Assembly (NCBI GenBank): GCA_937858455.1
Contig: CALLYN010000290.1
Span: forward strand, 1-11,669
Origin: an uncultured Kouleothrix sp.
GTDB taxonomy: Bacteria > Chloroflexota > Chloroflexia > Chloroflexales > Roseiflexaceae
Length of the DNA stretch: 11,669 nucleotides
Reading direction: 5' to 3'
The notes beneath the pieces were generated by a model. The model did no database searches and was not told the origin of the DNA. It saw only the letters and a list, made by a program, of their open reading frames with translations. Positions 2,949 to 10,205 of this stretch are shown piece by piece; position 1 is the stretch's first letter; each line of letters starts with the position of its first letter. The position numbers and the translations under genes were made by a program.

Positions 2949-3983
2949 GTGCTTGAACCACCCGACCTTCACGAAACCGCGATCAGCGCCTGCCTCGGCG
3001 CGGCGTATGGCCTGTCGATCGCCGAAATTGTGTTTCTGCCGCTCGGCGCCGACCCCGACACCGCCGTGTATCGTGCCGTTGCGAGCGATGGCCGCGTCTA
3101 CTTTCTGAAGCTGCGCCGCGGCCACTTCCCCGAGGCGAGTGTCAGCATCCCGTACTGGCTGGCGCAGTCGGGCATGCGCCAGCTGATCGCGCCGATCGCA
3201 GCCCGCGCAACCGGCGCGCTGTCGGCGCCGCTCGCGCCCTTCACCGCAATCCTCTACCCATTCATCAGCGGCGAGTCCGGCTGGGATGTGGCGCTGTCGC
3301 CGCGCCAGTGGGCCGAGTTCGGCGCCAGCCTGCGCCAGCTGCACGCCGCGGCGCCGCCGCCGGCTCTGCTCGCCACGGTTCCGCACGAAACCTACACCCC
3401 GGCCTGGCGCCAGCTGCTCGCGGCCTTTCTCCAGCAGGCGGCCGGGCAGCCATTCGCCGACCCGGTGGCGGCCGAGTTCGCGCGGCTGCTTGTGGCACAG
3501 CAGCGCACCATCCGGCAGCTGATCGCCCGCGCCGAACAGCTCGCCGGCATGCTGCGCCGGCAGCCGCCCGACCTGTGCCTGTGCCACGGCGACATCCACG
3601 CCGGCAACCTGCTGATCGACCCTGCCGGCCAGCTCTACCTGGTCGATTGGGACACGCTGGTGCTGGCGCCGAAAGAGCACGACCTGATGTATATCGGCGC
3701 GGGGATCGGCGGCATCTGGAACAGCGACGCGGAGGCGGCCCAGTTCTATGCAGGCTATGGCCCGGCGGCTATCAGCCCGGCGGCGCTGGCCTACTACCGC
3801 TACGAGCGCATCGTGCAAGACATCGCCGTCAGCTGCCAGCAGCTGCTCGCCAGCGCCGCCGGCGGCGACGACCGGCCGGTAGTGCTGCGCCAGATCGCCG
3901 GCCAGTTCGCGCCCGGCAACGTCGTGGCCGTCGCCATCGCCACCGACCAGCGCGCATTCGGCCAGGCGGACAGTGTCAGCTAG
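2949..3983 (+). CDS. APH(9)-Ia-like aminoglycoside/spectinomycin phosphotransferase family kinase
   Basis: A 344-residue cytoplasmic kinase of the APH/choline-kinase fold. K54 in YFLKLRRG fits the ATP-binding lysine. HGDIHAGN (residues 213-220) is the catalytic loop with Asp215 and Asn220, and VDWD (232-235) carries the metal-binding Asp. Features beyond the generic family match the spectinomycin phosphotransferase APH(9)-Ia as I recall it: GADPDTAVYRA near the start, AILYPFISGESGW, SPRQWAEFGASLRQLH, LAPKEHDLMYIGAG directly after DWD, and YYRYERIVQDIAV near residue 287. APH(9)-Ia is 331 residues, so length agrees. The GTG start is supported by AAAGGAAG (2935-2942). Relatives of this family occur widely in soil and water bacteria and many do not confer resistance, so activity on spectinomycin is an inference from family resemblance. 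The gene stands alone, with its own stop ~110 nt before the next gene. Confidence 0.82.
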   Translation: MLEPPDLHETAISACLGAAYGLSIAEIVFLPLGADPDTAVYRAVASDGRVYFLKLRRGHFPEASVSIPYWLAQSGMRQLIAPIAARATGALSAPLAPFTAILYPFISGESGWDVALSPRQWAEFGASLRQLHAAAPPPALLATVPHETYTPAWRQLLAAFLQQAAGQPFADPVAAEFARLLVAQQRTIRQLIARAEQLAGMLRRQPPDLCLCHGDIHAGNLLIDPAGQLYLVDWDTLVLAPKEHDLMYIGAGIGGIWNSDAEAAQFYAGYGPAAISPAALAYYRYERIVQDIAVSCQQLLASAAGGDDRPVVLRQIAGQFAPGNVVAVAIATDQRAFGQADSVS

Positions 3984-6651: not shown

Positions 6652-6674
6652 GATGAAGCCTCTTGGAGACAGAC

Positions 6675-8045
6675 GTGGCGCCCCAACACGAATCGATAGG
6701 CACAATTTTGATCGCCGACGACGAGAGCGCGACGATCGATATGCTCACCGACCTGCTCACCGAAGAAGGCTACCAGGTGAAAGGCGTCGGCAGCGGCACC
6801 GCCGTGCTCGAACAGCTGAAGGGCGATCATGGCTACGGGCTGCTGCTGATGGATCTGCAGATGCCTGGCATCAACGGCCTCGATCTGTTCGAGCGGCTGC
6901 GCAAAGAGGGTAGCGATATCCCGGTGATCCTGATCACCGCGCACGGCACCTCGTCGATCGCGATCCGCGCCATGCAGATGGGCGTGTACGATTACCTGCA
7001 AAAGCCCTTCGACCTCGACGAAGTGCTGGTGGTGATCAAGCGCCTGTTCGAGCACCAGGAGCTGGCCTCACGCGTGAAATCGCTCGAGCAGCGCGCTGAT
7101 CTGCGCGAGCGCATGATCGGCCGCAGCCCAGCCATGAGCCAGATCTACAAGACGATCGGCCGCGTCGCTGCCTCCGATGCCTCGGTGCTGATCACCGGCG
7201 AGACCGGCACCGGCAAGGAGCTGGCCGCCAACCTGATCCACCAGAACTCGGCCCGCCGCAACGGCCCGCTCGTGAAAGTCAACTGCGCGGCGCTGCCCGA
7301 GACGCTCATCGAAAGCGAGCTGTTCGGCCACGAGAAAGGCGCCTTTACCGGCGCGGTGGCCCAGCGCAAGGGCCGCTTTGAGCAGGCCCACAAGGGCACG
7401 ATCTTTCTCGACGAAGTCGGCGAGATCACCCTGCCGGTGCAGAAAAAGCTGCTGCGCGTGCTGCAAGAGGGCGAGATCGAGCGCGTCGGCGGCACCGGCG
7501 TGGTCAAGGTCGACGTGCGCGTCGTCGCCGCGACTAACCGCGATCTGCTCGATGAAGTCAAACAGGGCAATTTCCGCGAAGACCTCTACTACCGCCTGAA
7601 TGTGATCAACATCCACATGCCGCCGCTGCGCGAGCGCCGCGGCGATATCCCCATCCTGGTCGAGCATTTCCTCGATAAGTACCGCTACAAGCCCGGCGCG
7701 CCGCTTACCAAAATCTCGGAAGAGGCGCTTGCGCGGCTCGAGCGCTACGACTGGCCCGGCAATGTGCGCCAGCTCGAAAACGAGATCGAGCGCGCCGTGG
7801 TGCTCTCGCAGGGCAATGTGATCACCAGCCACGATCTGAACCTCTCGCAGCACGGCATTCCCACCCAGGTCGATCTGGCCACGCGCGTGCGCAACCGCGA
7901 GCGGCTGCTCGACGTGCTCGCCGAGGTCGAGCGCGTGATGATCTACGAAGCGCTTCAGCAGAGCGACGGCGACGAAAAAGACGCCGCCCAGCGGCTTGGC
8001 CTGGCGATCGACGATTTTCAGAAACGGCTGCACGCCGCACAGTAA
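6675..8045 (+). CDS. NtrC-family response regulator, sigma-54-dependent transcriptional activator
   Basis: A cytoplasmic bacterial enhancer-binding protein of 456 residues. The receiver domain (8-125) has acidic pocket D15/D16, phosphoacceptor D60 in LLLMDLQMPG, T88 and K110. The AAA+ domain (~148-376) has Walker A GETGTGKE (175-182), the sigma-54-contacting GAFTGA loop (222-227), Walker B GTIFLDEVGE (241-250) and a YDWPGNVRQLENE end. The C-terminal Fis-like segment (~425-456) keeps the spacing AAQRLG-x-x-x-DD-F-QKRL, but its recognition helix carries two Asp where NtrC relatives have basic or hydroxyl residues. The GTG at 6675 is preferred over an in-frame TTG at 6663 because GGAG (6665-6668) sits 6 nt before it. 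No partner kinase is adjacent; the kinase fragment at the window end is one candidate. rpoN lies 780 nt downstream, so both halves of the sigma-54 apparatus are local. Confidence 0.93.
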   Translation: MAPQHESIGTILIADDESATIDMLTDLLTEEGYQVKGVGSGTAVLEQLKGDHGYGLLLMDLQMPGINGLDLFERLRKEGSDIPVILITAHGTSSIAIRAMQMGVYDYLQKPFDLDEVLVVIKRLFEHQELASRVKSLEQRADLRERMIGRSPAMSQIYKTIGRVAASDASVLITGETGTGKELAANLIHQNSARRNGPLVKVNCAALPETLIESELFGHEKGAFTGAVAQRKGRFEQAHKGTIFLDEVGEITLPVQKKLLRVLQEGEIERVGGTGVVKVDVRVVAATNRDLLDEVKQGNFREDLYYRLNVINIHMPPLRERRGDIPILVEHFLDKYRYKPGAPLTKISEEALARLERYDWPGNVRQLENEIERAVVLSQGNVITSHDLNLSQHGIPTQVDLATRVRNRERLLDVLAEVERVMIYEALQQSDGDEKDAAQRLGLAIDDFQKRLHAAQ

Positions 8046-8157: not shown

Positions 8158-8174
8158 TGGCACACATATTGCTT
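8158..8174 (+). promoter_or_regulatory. Putative sigma-54 (-24/-12) promoter, rightward
   Basis: TGGCACACATATTGCTT matches the consensus TGGCACG-N4-TTGCW at every position except the seventh, with GG and GC exactly 10 nt apart. Predicted start is near 8184, which is inside the stop codon of the minus-strand gene, so the transcript would be antisense to that gene or a long leader for rpoN. Functional use is unproven. Confidence 0.5.
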
Positions 8175-8181
8175 ATAGAGG

Positions 8182-8622
8182 TTATGGGCGCAGCACCTGG
8201 TAGATCACCAGTACCTGAGGCCCTGAGCCGTCGCGTAGCACAACCTCGATCGCATCAGCTGGCAGCGTGCCGCGGCTCAGCGGGTCGAAGCCTGGCTGGC
8301 CTTCGAAGTAGTAGTAGTACGTGCGGCCACCCACCGAAAATCCGCGCATGGCGCTCTGCCGGGCGGTGACGCCGGGCGCAAGCTCGACCAGTGGATCGCT
8401 CACATCGCCATTCACACGGGCCCAGATCGCCTCACGAACAGTTTGAATATCGGCGCTGCGCGCAAGTGGCAAGCGGCTAGGAAGCGTGGAAATGATCAGG
8501 AGAAGCGCGACGGCAATGCCGGCCCCGACAAGCACAAAGATTCCCCAAAACAGCGCCGGGTTGGCGCGCAGAACTGGCACCGGCCGCGCTTGCGCGACTC
8601 CTTGGGCGGGTACGTTGATCAT
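8182..8622 (-). CDS. Single-pass membrane-anchored protein, unknown function
   Basis: A 146-residue protein that I cannot place in a named family. A proline-rich N-terminus (about 23 residues, MINVPAQGVAQARPVPVLRA) is followed by one membrane segment, ALFWGIFVLVGAGIAVALLL (~23-46). The remaining ~100 residues are soluble and probably outside the membrane. They contain RSADIQTVREAIWARVNGD, GGRTYYYYFEGQPGFDPLSR and a final IEVVLRDGSGPQVLVIYQVL, reading as a small beta-rich domain; the four Tyr in a row are striking. The ATG is well supported by AGGAGGG 6 nt upstream. It lies between the sigma-54 activator and rpoN, is transcribed against both, and has a sigma-54-type promoter 61 nt before its start, which suggests it is a target of this local circuit. 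Confidence 0.75.
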   Translation of the reverse strand: MINVPAQGVAQARPVPVLRANPALFWGIFVLVGAGIAVALLLIISTLPSRLPLARSADIQTVREAIWARVNGDVSDPLVELAPGVTARQSAMRGFSVGGRTYYYYFEGQPGFDPLSRGTLPADAIEVVLRDGSGPQVLVIYQVLRP

Positions 8623-8692: not shown

Positions 8693-8709
8693 CAGCAGAT
8701 AACGTGCCA
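8693..8709 (-). promoter_or_regulatory. Putative sigma-54 (-24/-12) promoter for the 8182-8622 gene
   Basis: Read on the minus strand, TGGCACGTTATCTGCTG has a perfect -24 box (TGGCACG) and a -12 box CTGCT, with GG and GC exactly 10 nt apart; only one base departs from TTGCW. The predicted start is near 8683, giving a ~60-nt leader before the ATG at 8622. It lies in the intergenic gap, correctly oriented, next to rpoN. Confidence 0.6.
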
Positions 8710-8825: not shown

Positions 8826-10205
8826 ATGATGGATATGAGCATGGGCATGAATCTGCTGCCCCAGCAGCAGATGAAAGCATCGCCGGCGCTGATCGCGCTG
8901 AATAATATGCTGGTTCTCTCAACACAAGAGCTCCAGCAGCTCGTGCAGACCGAGCTGGAAGACAACCCGGCGCTCGAGCAGGCCGAGAGCGACGAGGCGC
9001 TGTGCAGCCGCTGCGGCCGGCCGCTCAGCGGCGCTACCTGCATTTACTGCCTGCACGAAGATATGAAGCTGGCCGAGGCCGAGCGCGATGACTCGAGCGC
9101 CGCGCCCGCCGACGACGAGTTCGACCCGCTGCTGGCGATCGCCGCGCCCTCGACACTGCGCGAATCGCTTGAGCGCGACCTGCATATCAGCCTGCCCGAG
9201 GCCGACCACAGCATCGCCGATTACCTGATCGGCTCGCTCGACGAGCACGGCTTCCTCGATGGCGCGCTAGACGAGCTTGCCGACGCGCTGCGCGTCGCCC
9301 CCGAGCAGATCGAGCAGGTGCTGCTGAAGCTGCAGGATCTGGCGCCGGCCGGCATTGGCGCGCGCAATGTTCAGGAGTGCCTGCTCATCCAGATCGACCG
9401 CCTCGAGCGCCAGGGTGTCAGCAACCCGCACCTCCGCGCGATCATCCGCGATCACTGGTTCGACCTAGGCGAGCACCGCTACGGCGCGATCGCCCAGGCG
9501 CTCGGCATCAGCTACGACGACGTTGTGGCCGCGCGCGATTTCATGCGCCAGTACCTGCGGCCGTTCCCGCTCGAGCGCACCAACGACGGTGCCAGCAGCG
9601 CCGATACGTCGTTCGTGCTGCCCGACGTGGTCATCCGCGAAGAAAACGGCCAGCTCGTGGCCGAGGTGGTCGAGTCGCGCCGCTTCTACCTGCGCCTCAA
9701 CCCGCTCTACCAGGAGCTTGCCCAGTCGGCCGGGCGCCAGCAGCACAATATCTCGGCCGAGGAACGCGAGCACCTCAGCGTATTCGTGACGCGCGCGCGC
9801 CTGTTCCTGACGAATATGCGCCAGCGCCGCGAGACCATCCGGCGCATCGCCGAGTTTCTGATTGAGCGCCAGGAGGCCTACCTGCGCTATGGCGTGCGCC
9901 ACCTCGCCCCGCTGACACGCGCCGAGGTGGCCGCCGCGCTGGGCGTGCACGAGTCGACGGTGAGCCGCGCCACCGCCAACAAGTACGTGCAGATTCCCAG
10001 CAAAGCGATCGTGCCGTTCAGCCATTTTTTCACCGCCTCGCTGTCGATCAAGGATATAATTCAAGAGCTGATTGCCAACGAGAGCACGCCGCTGACCGAC
10101 CAGGACATCGTCGAGATTTTGCGCGACCGCGGCATGGATGTGGCCCGCCGCACTGTGACGAAGTATCGCGGCCAGCTCGGCATCCTGCCCTCGACGCTGC
10201 GCTAG
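8826..10205 (+). CDS. rpoN: RNA polymerase sigma-54 factor with a four-cysteine insert
   Basis: Directs RNA polymerase to -24/-12 promoters and requires an activator ATPase. Region I is present at residues ~12-51 (LLPQQQMKASPALIAL then LSTQELQQLVQTELEDNPALE). The core-binding domain runs about 105-290, and the promoter-binding helix-turn-helix at ~362-392 reads LGVHESTVSRATANKYVQ. The RpoN box is ARRTVTKYR (440-448), close to the canonical ARRTVAKYR. Length 459 is usual. The oddity is CSRCGRPLSGATCIYC at residues 60-75 (9003-9050), a CX2C-X8-CX2C knuckle between region I and the core-binding domain, where relatives have an acidic variable linker. ATG codons also occur at 8829, 8835, 8841 and 8847; the first, with GAGG 9 nt upstream, is taken. 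Two small membrane-protein genes follow closely. Confidence 0.95.
   Translation: MMDMSMGMNLLPQQQMKASPALIALNNMLVLSTQELQQLVQTELEDNPALEQAESDEALCSRCGRPLSGATCIYCLHEDMKLAEAERDDSSAAPADDEFDPLLAIAAPSTLRESLERDLHISLPEADHSIADYLIGSLDEHGFLDGALDELADALRVAPEQIEQVLLKLQDLAPAGIGARNVQECLLIQIDRLERQGVSNPHLRAIIRDHWFDLGEHRYGAIAQALGISYDDVVAARDFMRQYLRPFPLERTNDGASSADTSFVLPDVVIREENGQLVAEVVESRRFYLRLNPLYQELAQSAGRQQHNISAEEREHLSVFVTRARLFLTNMRQRRETIRRIAEFLIERQEAYLRYGVRHLAPLTRAEVAAALGVHESTVSRATANKYVQIPSKAIVPFSHFFTASLSIKDIIQELIANESTPLTDQDIVEILRDRGMDVARRTVTKYRGQLGILPSTLR
9003..9050 (+). other. Zinc-ribbon-like motif inside RpoN
   Basis: Encodes Cys60, Cys63, Cys72 and Cys75 in the pattern CX2C-X8-CX2C, with Gly-Arg and Ile-Tyr following the knuckles as in small zinc ribbons. 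This is the part of sigma-54 (region II) that is normally acidic, variable and without known structure. Confidence 0.7.

Follow-up and report, generated by a model that had tools for sequence, protein, structure and literature searches.

In E. coli sigma-54, the RII.1 element of region II is lodged in the downstream DNA channel when the holoenzyme is inactive, with RII.3 in the RNA path, as summarized in PMC7057263. The region II finger, residues 104–112, is close to the template strand, and PMC10786286 describes region II as a whole as less conserved than any other part of the factor. Activators thread the N-terminus of the factor into an AAA+ ring and unfold helix 1 of region I; the statements on this step in PMC9770992 and PMC12054792 present as open how activator-driven unfolding ends or is regulated, and the latter holds that unfolding approximately 26 residues of region I should be enough. 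Among proteins linked to the function of sigma-54, FlgZ (HP0958, DUF164/PF02591) is described as having a C4 zinc ribbon; it is a stand-alone protein that contains a coiled coil and has its Cys pairs set further apart (PMC3372290). The Chloroflexota sigma-54 analyzed here likewise has a probable C4 ribbon, carried within the sigma factor itself: where the E. coli protein has an acidic, Cys-free sequence, it has a four-Cys module. We consider it likely, at a probability of roughly 0.73, that this is an ancestral structural C4 metal module in early region II, most plausibly holding one zinc in a ribbon or treble-clef fold. No description of a four-Cys module in sigma-54 was found in the open-licence PMC literature searched, mainly at the level of titles and the first lines of abstracts, and Chloroflexota sigma-54 thus appears to be a phylum-wide architectural variant that is apparently undescribed in those sources.

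The window, the whole stretch of 11,669 nucleotides that was analyzed, is contig CALLYN010000290.1 (C290) of an uncultured Kouleothrix sp. (Chloroflexota, Roseiflexaceae; GCA_937858455.1), whose genome comprises 5.14 Mb at 71.5% completeness. On its plus strand, to which all protein coordinates below refer, rpoN (8826–10205) encodes a 459-residue protein that scores 303 bits against TIGR02395 (cut-off 277) and matches PF00309, PF04963 and PF04552, the activator-interacting (AID), core-binding and DNA-binding domains, all above cut-off. It is the sole match to the sigma-54 DNA-binding domain in this 71.5% complete genome, and its closest named RpoN matches among those listed are from Kouleothrix and Roseiflexaceae. 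Region I spans residues 13–51 (8862–8978; PF00309) and ends in NPALE (8964–8978), the core-binding domain spans residues 105–295 (9138–9710; PF04963, 144 bits), and residues 440–449 (10143–10172), ARRTVTKYRG, form what we take to be the RpoN box. The sequence DDEFDPLL (9111–9134) is the likely equivalent of the region II finger; window Pro101 aligns with E. coli Pro110, and in a 79-row alignment (A3) D100 is invariant and F99 and P101 are almost invariant. The alignment of the two prolines argues that the finger is retained and that the difference lies in the part before it. In common with E. coli-type systems are the three domains, the RpoN box, the finger Pro, −24/−12-type sites and a GAFTGA activator nearby. 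The window protein is ordinary as a sigma-54 and unusual in its architecture.

The protein contains five Cys residues, at positions 60, 63, 72, 75 and 185, the first four of which form the CX2C-X8-CX2C pattern of residues 60–75, CSRCGRPLSGATCIYC, coded exactly by nucleotides 9003–9050. The original prediction had placed this quartet in the linker between region I and the core-binding domain, and both the coordinates and the Pfam domain bounds agree. Its description of the motif as an insert does not hold: 49 residues separate NPALE, ending at residue 51, from the finger-motif Pro101, compared with 61 residues from NPLLE to Pro110 in E. coli sigma-54, and an insert by length was rejected since the window linker is not the longer of the two. 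As read from sequence, the module occupies the variable first half of region II rather than lengthening it. The distance from the end of region I, an NPALE-like motif, to the first Cys is 6 residues in 110 of the 125 Chloroflexota sigma-54 places in which that motif was recognized; it is 8 residues between NPALE and Cys60 in the window, and so is not perfectly fixed. A simple motif search puts the finger-like motif 7 to 56 residues after the module, with no motif found in 18 cases and one outlier of 106. The module is followed by a weakly conserved, mostly acidic spacer (9051–9110), as judged from per-position residue frequencies in the 93 members with X8 spacing. Behind the last Cys the top frequency in these members falls to 0.13–0.29 per position, a count made by offset from the Cys rather than by alignment, to which differences in linker length add apparent divergence. 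The mean net charge over the 30 residues following the module is −4.2 in the same members.

The conservation of the quartet was assessed in 400 sampled Chloroflexota genomes, 120 of which have a PF04963 match, giving 139 sigma-54 places (L001–L139) that were all read. The quartet is present at 133 of the 139, in 34 family codes and in 115 of the 120 genomes with a match; 128 places have CX2C-X(7-13)-CX2C, with X8 in 93, and five have CX2C-X11-CXC. The original prediction had named a lack of Cys conservation even in close relatives as a ground for rejecting it, and this phylum-wide count is the reverse of that outcome. In a separate homologue search, 118 of the 120 homologues listed (of 3607 found) carry the quartet, 116 with X8 and 2 with X10, and the other two, P0075 and P0108, start downstream of it. 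A search with three deep-branching members found it in 117 of the 120 matches listed; two of the exceptions are truncated, and the third, P0292, is missing the fourth Cys. The chance of a quartet is crudely estimated, from the Cys frequency of these proteins, as approximately 1e-6 per 60-residue linker, and chance or local oddity was rejected as its source on the counts of 118 in 120 and 133 in 139. Since the X8 class is defined by the Cys pattern, its 100% Cys at those positions holds by construction, as the Cys invariance in alignment A3 follows from the choice of its rows as quartet carriers; the independent evidence is therefore the count over all places together with the other preferred positions. 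In the 93 X8 members the second Cys is followed by Gly (92%), then Leu (70%) and Gly (69%), so that positions that played no part in choosing these members also appear to have a ribbon-like preference.

The places lacking an intact quartet differ in kind. At L011 and L062 the quartet is present behind a stop or in another frame, and L097 and L139 are cut by contig edges, L097 retaining an apparent second Cys pair. L002 has no quartet and is an RpoN of alphaproteobacterial type. In L130, from genome G094 of the same order, region I and a finger-like motif are retained, but the module site has no Cys; judged by this comparison it is a real loss, and it constitutes a natural deletion variant of the module. 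The loss in G094 and the three-Cys P0292 indicate that the module is not strictly essential. Both would also suit a passive relic, a small folded module merely keeping the linker compact or soluble and having no regulatory role, as would the reported low conservation of region II (PMC10786286). A relic of this kind is rather unlikely, however, given that the quartet is held at 133 of 139 places while the sequence behind it diverges. Several genomes of family codes f17 and f43 (L092–L127) have two or three sigma-54 paralogues, and of those read all but the truncated L097 have the module; L094, L105, L119, L124 and L127, which have CX2C-X11-CXC in place of the usual pattern, form one clade. In the family of the window genome, 7 of 9 genomes (own included) have no sigma-54 match, and among the f2 genomes listed the same is true of 13 of 17. 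That so many close relatives are without sigma-54 may reflect frequent loss of the factor in this order.

The nature of the site was addressed by family searches and structure prediction. For 5 of 6 module fragments the highest-ranking Pfam family is the double zinc ribbon, DZR (PF12773), each time below the cut-off of 27.3 bits (18.8 bits for the window, 17.0–23.0 for the four others), and no Pfam zinc family matches any of the six above cut-off. Like DZR and other short CPxCG ribbons, the module has CX2C-X(7-13)-CX2C with mostly Gly after the second Cys; it differs from DZR in having one ribbon only, in scoring below the family cut-off and in being embedded in a sigma factor. Zn_Ribbon_TF gives weak, partial matches in 2 of the 6 fragments (E 0.066 and 0.65; 13.2 and 10 bits against a cut-off of 29) and is not among the three families matched by the window fragment; PF02591 is absent from the matches of both the window RpoN and its fragment. 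Two AlphaFold models were made, from a 95-row alignment that included mainstream sequences and from a 79-row alignment of quartet-bearing proteins only. In each, a strand begins at residue 50 and ends at 52 or 54, positions 59, 66, 68 and 71 are single bridge residues, and a helix (9042–9083) starts at the second Cys pair, extending over residues 73–84 in one model and 73–86 in the other. The structure prediction called for originally is therefore reproducible in its strand and helix and low in confidence, with pLDDT of 54–63 over ten-residue blocks and block means of 63 and 55 for residues 71–80; the quartet-only alignment gave no rise in local confidence. In C4 zinc ribbons and treble clefs two Cys pairs lie on knuckles, with the second pair of a treble clef at the start of a helix, and the motif together with the predicted secondary structure would be compatible with this pattern at the low pLDDT given. 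Foldseek and VIA-align searches with the whole model as query ranked sigma-54 structures first; most of the lower matches covered the C-terminal DNA-binding part. The sequence pattern, the sub-threshold resemblance to DZR and the low-confidence models together argue that the module very probably binds zinc, and we infer that it folds on its own.

C4 sites can in principle also act as redox or metal switches. Here such a switch would mean that the Cys hold iron-sulphur or form reversible disulphides and that sigma-54 activity responds to oxygen, redox state or the supply of zinc, and in the window a two-component-type activator does lie upstream of rpoN. That all four Cys persist across 34 family codes is more readily explained by a structural site, and no redox or metal family is named among the window proteins scanned, several of which have no family match at all; a switch is accordingly quite improbable, and the structural metal site remains the preferred reading.

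The original prediction also held that standard sigma-54 proteins have no known metal site at this position, which agrees with the outside RpoNs examined, and the Chloroflexota knuckle itself is probable on the sequence pattern described above. The quartet is absent from all 80 RpoNs taken from named genome contigs (the best 80 of at least 589 confirmed candidates), which comprise 74 from Pseudomonadota, 5 from Verrucomicrobiota and 1 unplaced, some having N-termini close to contig edges. It is likewise absent from the 30 loci examined of 60 AID places in the phylum of a Prosthecobacter record, and from 8 plasmid-record RpoNs (of 226 matching records) from Bacteroidota, Fusobacteriota, Bacillota and Pseudomonadota, the first three of which contribute one RpoN each to the outside set. 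One loose match, at a Paraburkholderia locus (L229), lies ahead of the protein itself, close to where the open frame begins. A search with a consensus N-terminus, a computed query that itself contained a ribbon, gave 97 matches, 83 without a ribbon and 14 with one; the 7 of these 14 that were placed on the tree all fall inside the Chloroflexota group, the other 7 having been left off. The module thus appears to be absent from the outside sigma-54s examined, a statement that applies to this sample, in which Armatimonadota, Dormibacterota, Planctomycetota and most Bacillota were left out and the phyla nearest Chloroflexota are absent.

A quick, unrooted tree of 135 rows, built from the core-binding and DNA-binding parts and not including those nearer phyla, places 103 of 103 quartet rows in one 107-row group with SH-aLRT 99, the same group including four Chloroflexota rows labelled as having no quartet. 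L116, L138 and L139 are excluded from it, and within-genus repeats were thinned except in f17 and f43. The label changes five times on this tree; three of the changes, at L011, L062 and L097, arise only through a cut or frame-split N-terminus. The simplest reading is that the module was gained once and truly lost once. L002, the only RpoN place found in Chloroflexota genome G360, clusters with alphaproteobacteria, and its lack of a ribbon is explained by contamination or recent transfer. The module also sets Chloroflexota sigma-54 apart as a clade of distinct architecture.

What the module does can be approached by analogy with the E. coli holoenzyme. It would take the place of the RII.1 stretch immediately behind region I, and its nearly constant distance from region I suggests that it is well placed as a plug and perhaps as a stop. 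A metal-stapled RII.1 would plug the downstream DNA channel as a folded unit that has to leave in one piece, and the metal-held module would be a hard stop confining unfolding to region I. This plug/stop mechanism specifically, which rests on E. coli structures, is offered tentatively, with the odds against it. Doubtful as well is an activator stop in the strict sense, a knot that blocks threading through the AAA+ ring and so fixes the point at which unfolding ends, with the module also plugging the downstream channel; if approximately 26 residues of region I suffice, as indicated in PMC12054792, the activator may stop short of the module altogether. The main rival to a plug or stop is a docking or stabilizing role, in which the ribbon is a fixed contact to polymerase, DNA or a partner, or protects against proteolysis, acting as FlgZ does but in cis. 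The extra contact to polymerase or DNA raised by the original prediction is possible. The stability of H. pylori RpoN is reported to require the FlgZ zinc ribbon (PMC3372290), and PF02591 has no match in the window genome, in G309 or in the seven genomes of family code f3 with a ribbon-bearing RpoN, with matches in 5 of 60 genomes of the order. However, PF02591 is also missing from relatives that have no sigma-54 match, so its absence cannot be read as replacement. In G150 a ribbon RpoN and a PF02591 protein occur together, and the Cys spacing of the FlgZ family, CXXC-X18-26-CXXC, is unlike that of the module (PMC3372290). An either/or coupling of the module to FlgZ was considered and dropped, the PF02591 survey giving no clean pattern. 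The docking role is overall conceivable and, on this divided evidence, on the unlikely side.

Returning to the plug/stop mechanism, a parallel lies in transcription factors of the TFIIB type, in which a zinc ribbon precedes the segment that reaches the polymerase active centre. The module would similarly precede the region II finger, a likeness of arrangement by analogy and not of family membership. If the module acts as both a stop for the activator and a plug, a whole phylum would have a metal-dependent, differently wired sigma-54 promoter opening that is outwardly TFIIB-ribbon-like. A conserved four-Cys module behind region I would also provide a natural handle on region II and on the end of region I unfolding.

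The surroundings of rpoN look like those of a working sigma-54. A response regulator with a sigma-54 AAA+ domain, an enhancer-binding protein, is encoded upstream at 6663–8045 on the plus strand, with GAFTGA at 7338–7355; elsewhere in the genome, C892 carries another strong PF00158 match, and there are four weak ones. Between the activator gene and rpoN lies a 146-aa ORF on the minus strand (8182–8622) with one apparent membrane segment by eye and no Pfam or NCBIfam match, and the two strong −24/−12-like sites in the window, identified by sequence match (at most 1 mismatch), flank it. On the minus strand, TGGCACGTTATCTGCT (8694–8709, 1 mismatch) lies upstream of this ORF and approximately 116 bases before rpoN, and the ORF is a possible sigma-54 target. 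On the plus strand, TGGCACACATATTGCT (8158–8173, perfect core) points into the ORF from its 3′ end and could give rise to an antisense transcript or a small RNA. The reading of sites in the window rests on these two; allowing 3 mismatches across the whole window gave 23 sites against 25.5 by chance, and hence no excess. In G309, an activator homologue with 70% identity adjoins rpoN and a homologue of the 146-aa ORF (49% over 83 aa) lies between them, so that the order of activator, ORF and rpoN is kept, with a similar −24/−12 site at the matching place (L269). Contamination as the source of the motif was rejected for the window, as G309 also has the module, together with several of the neighbouring genes in the same order. 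Upstream sequence was long enough for this analysis at 130 loci. Of these, 36 have −24/−12 sites in the direction of rpoN within the 300 bases before it, against 0.55 expected from a first-order model, some of these loci being close relatives so that the 36 are not independent cases; 94 have no site in this direction. In the opposite direction, sites occur in 8 of 130 loci against 0.35 expected, and a coding control gave 0 and 0 in the two directions. With this excess of sites far above chance, the proteins look like working sigma-54s.

Two further features of the window concern its other genes. The plus-strand gene at 2949–3983 encodes an APH-family phosphotransferase whose match to NCBIfam APH(9)-Ia, 238 bits against a cut-off of 680, is far enough under that threshold that it is not called a resistance gene. 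At the left end (337–997), the C-terminal half of a TctC-type receptor on the minus strand meets a LuxR-type DNA-binding region on the plus strand near 770–800, and both parts look truncated, pointing to a rearrangement or to a chimera in the assembly.
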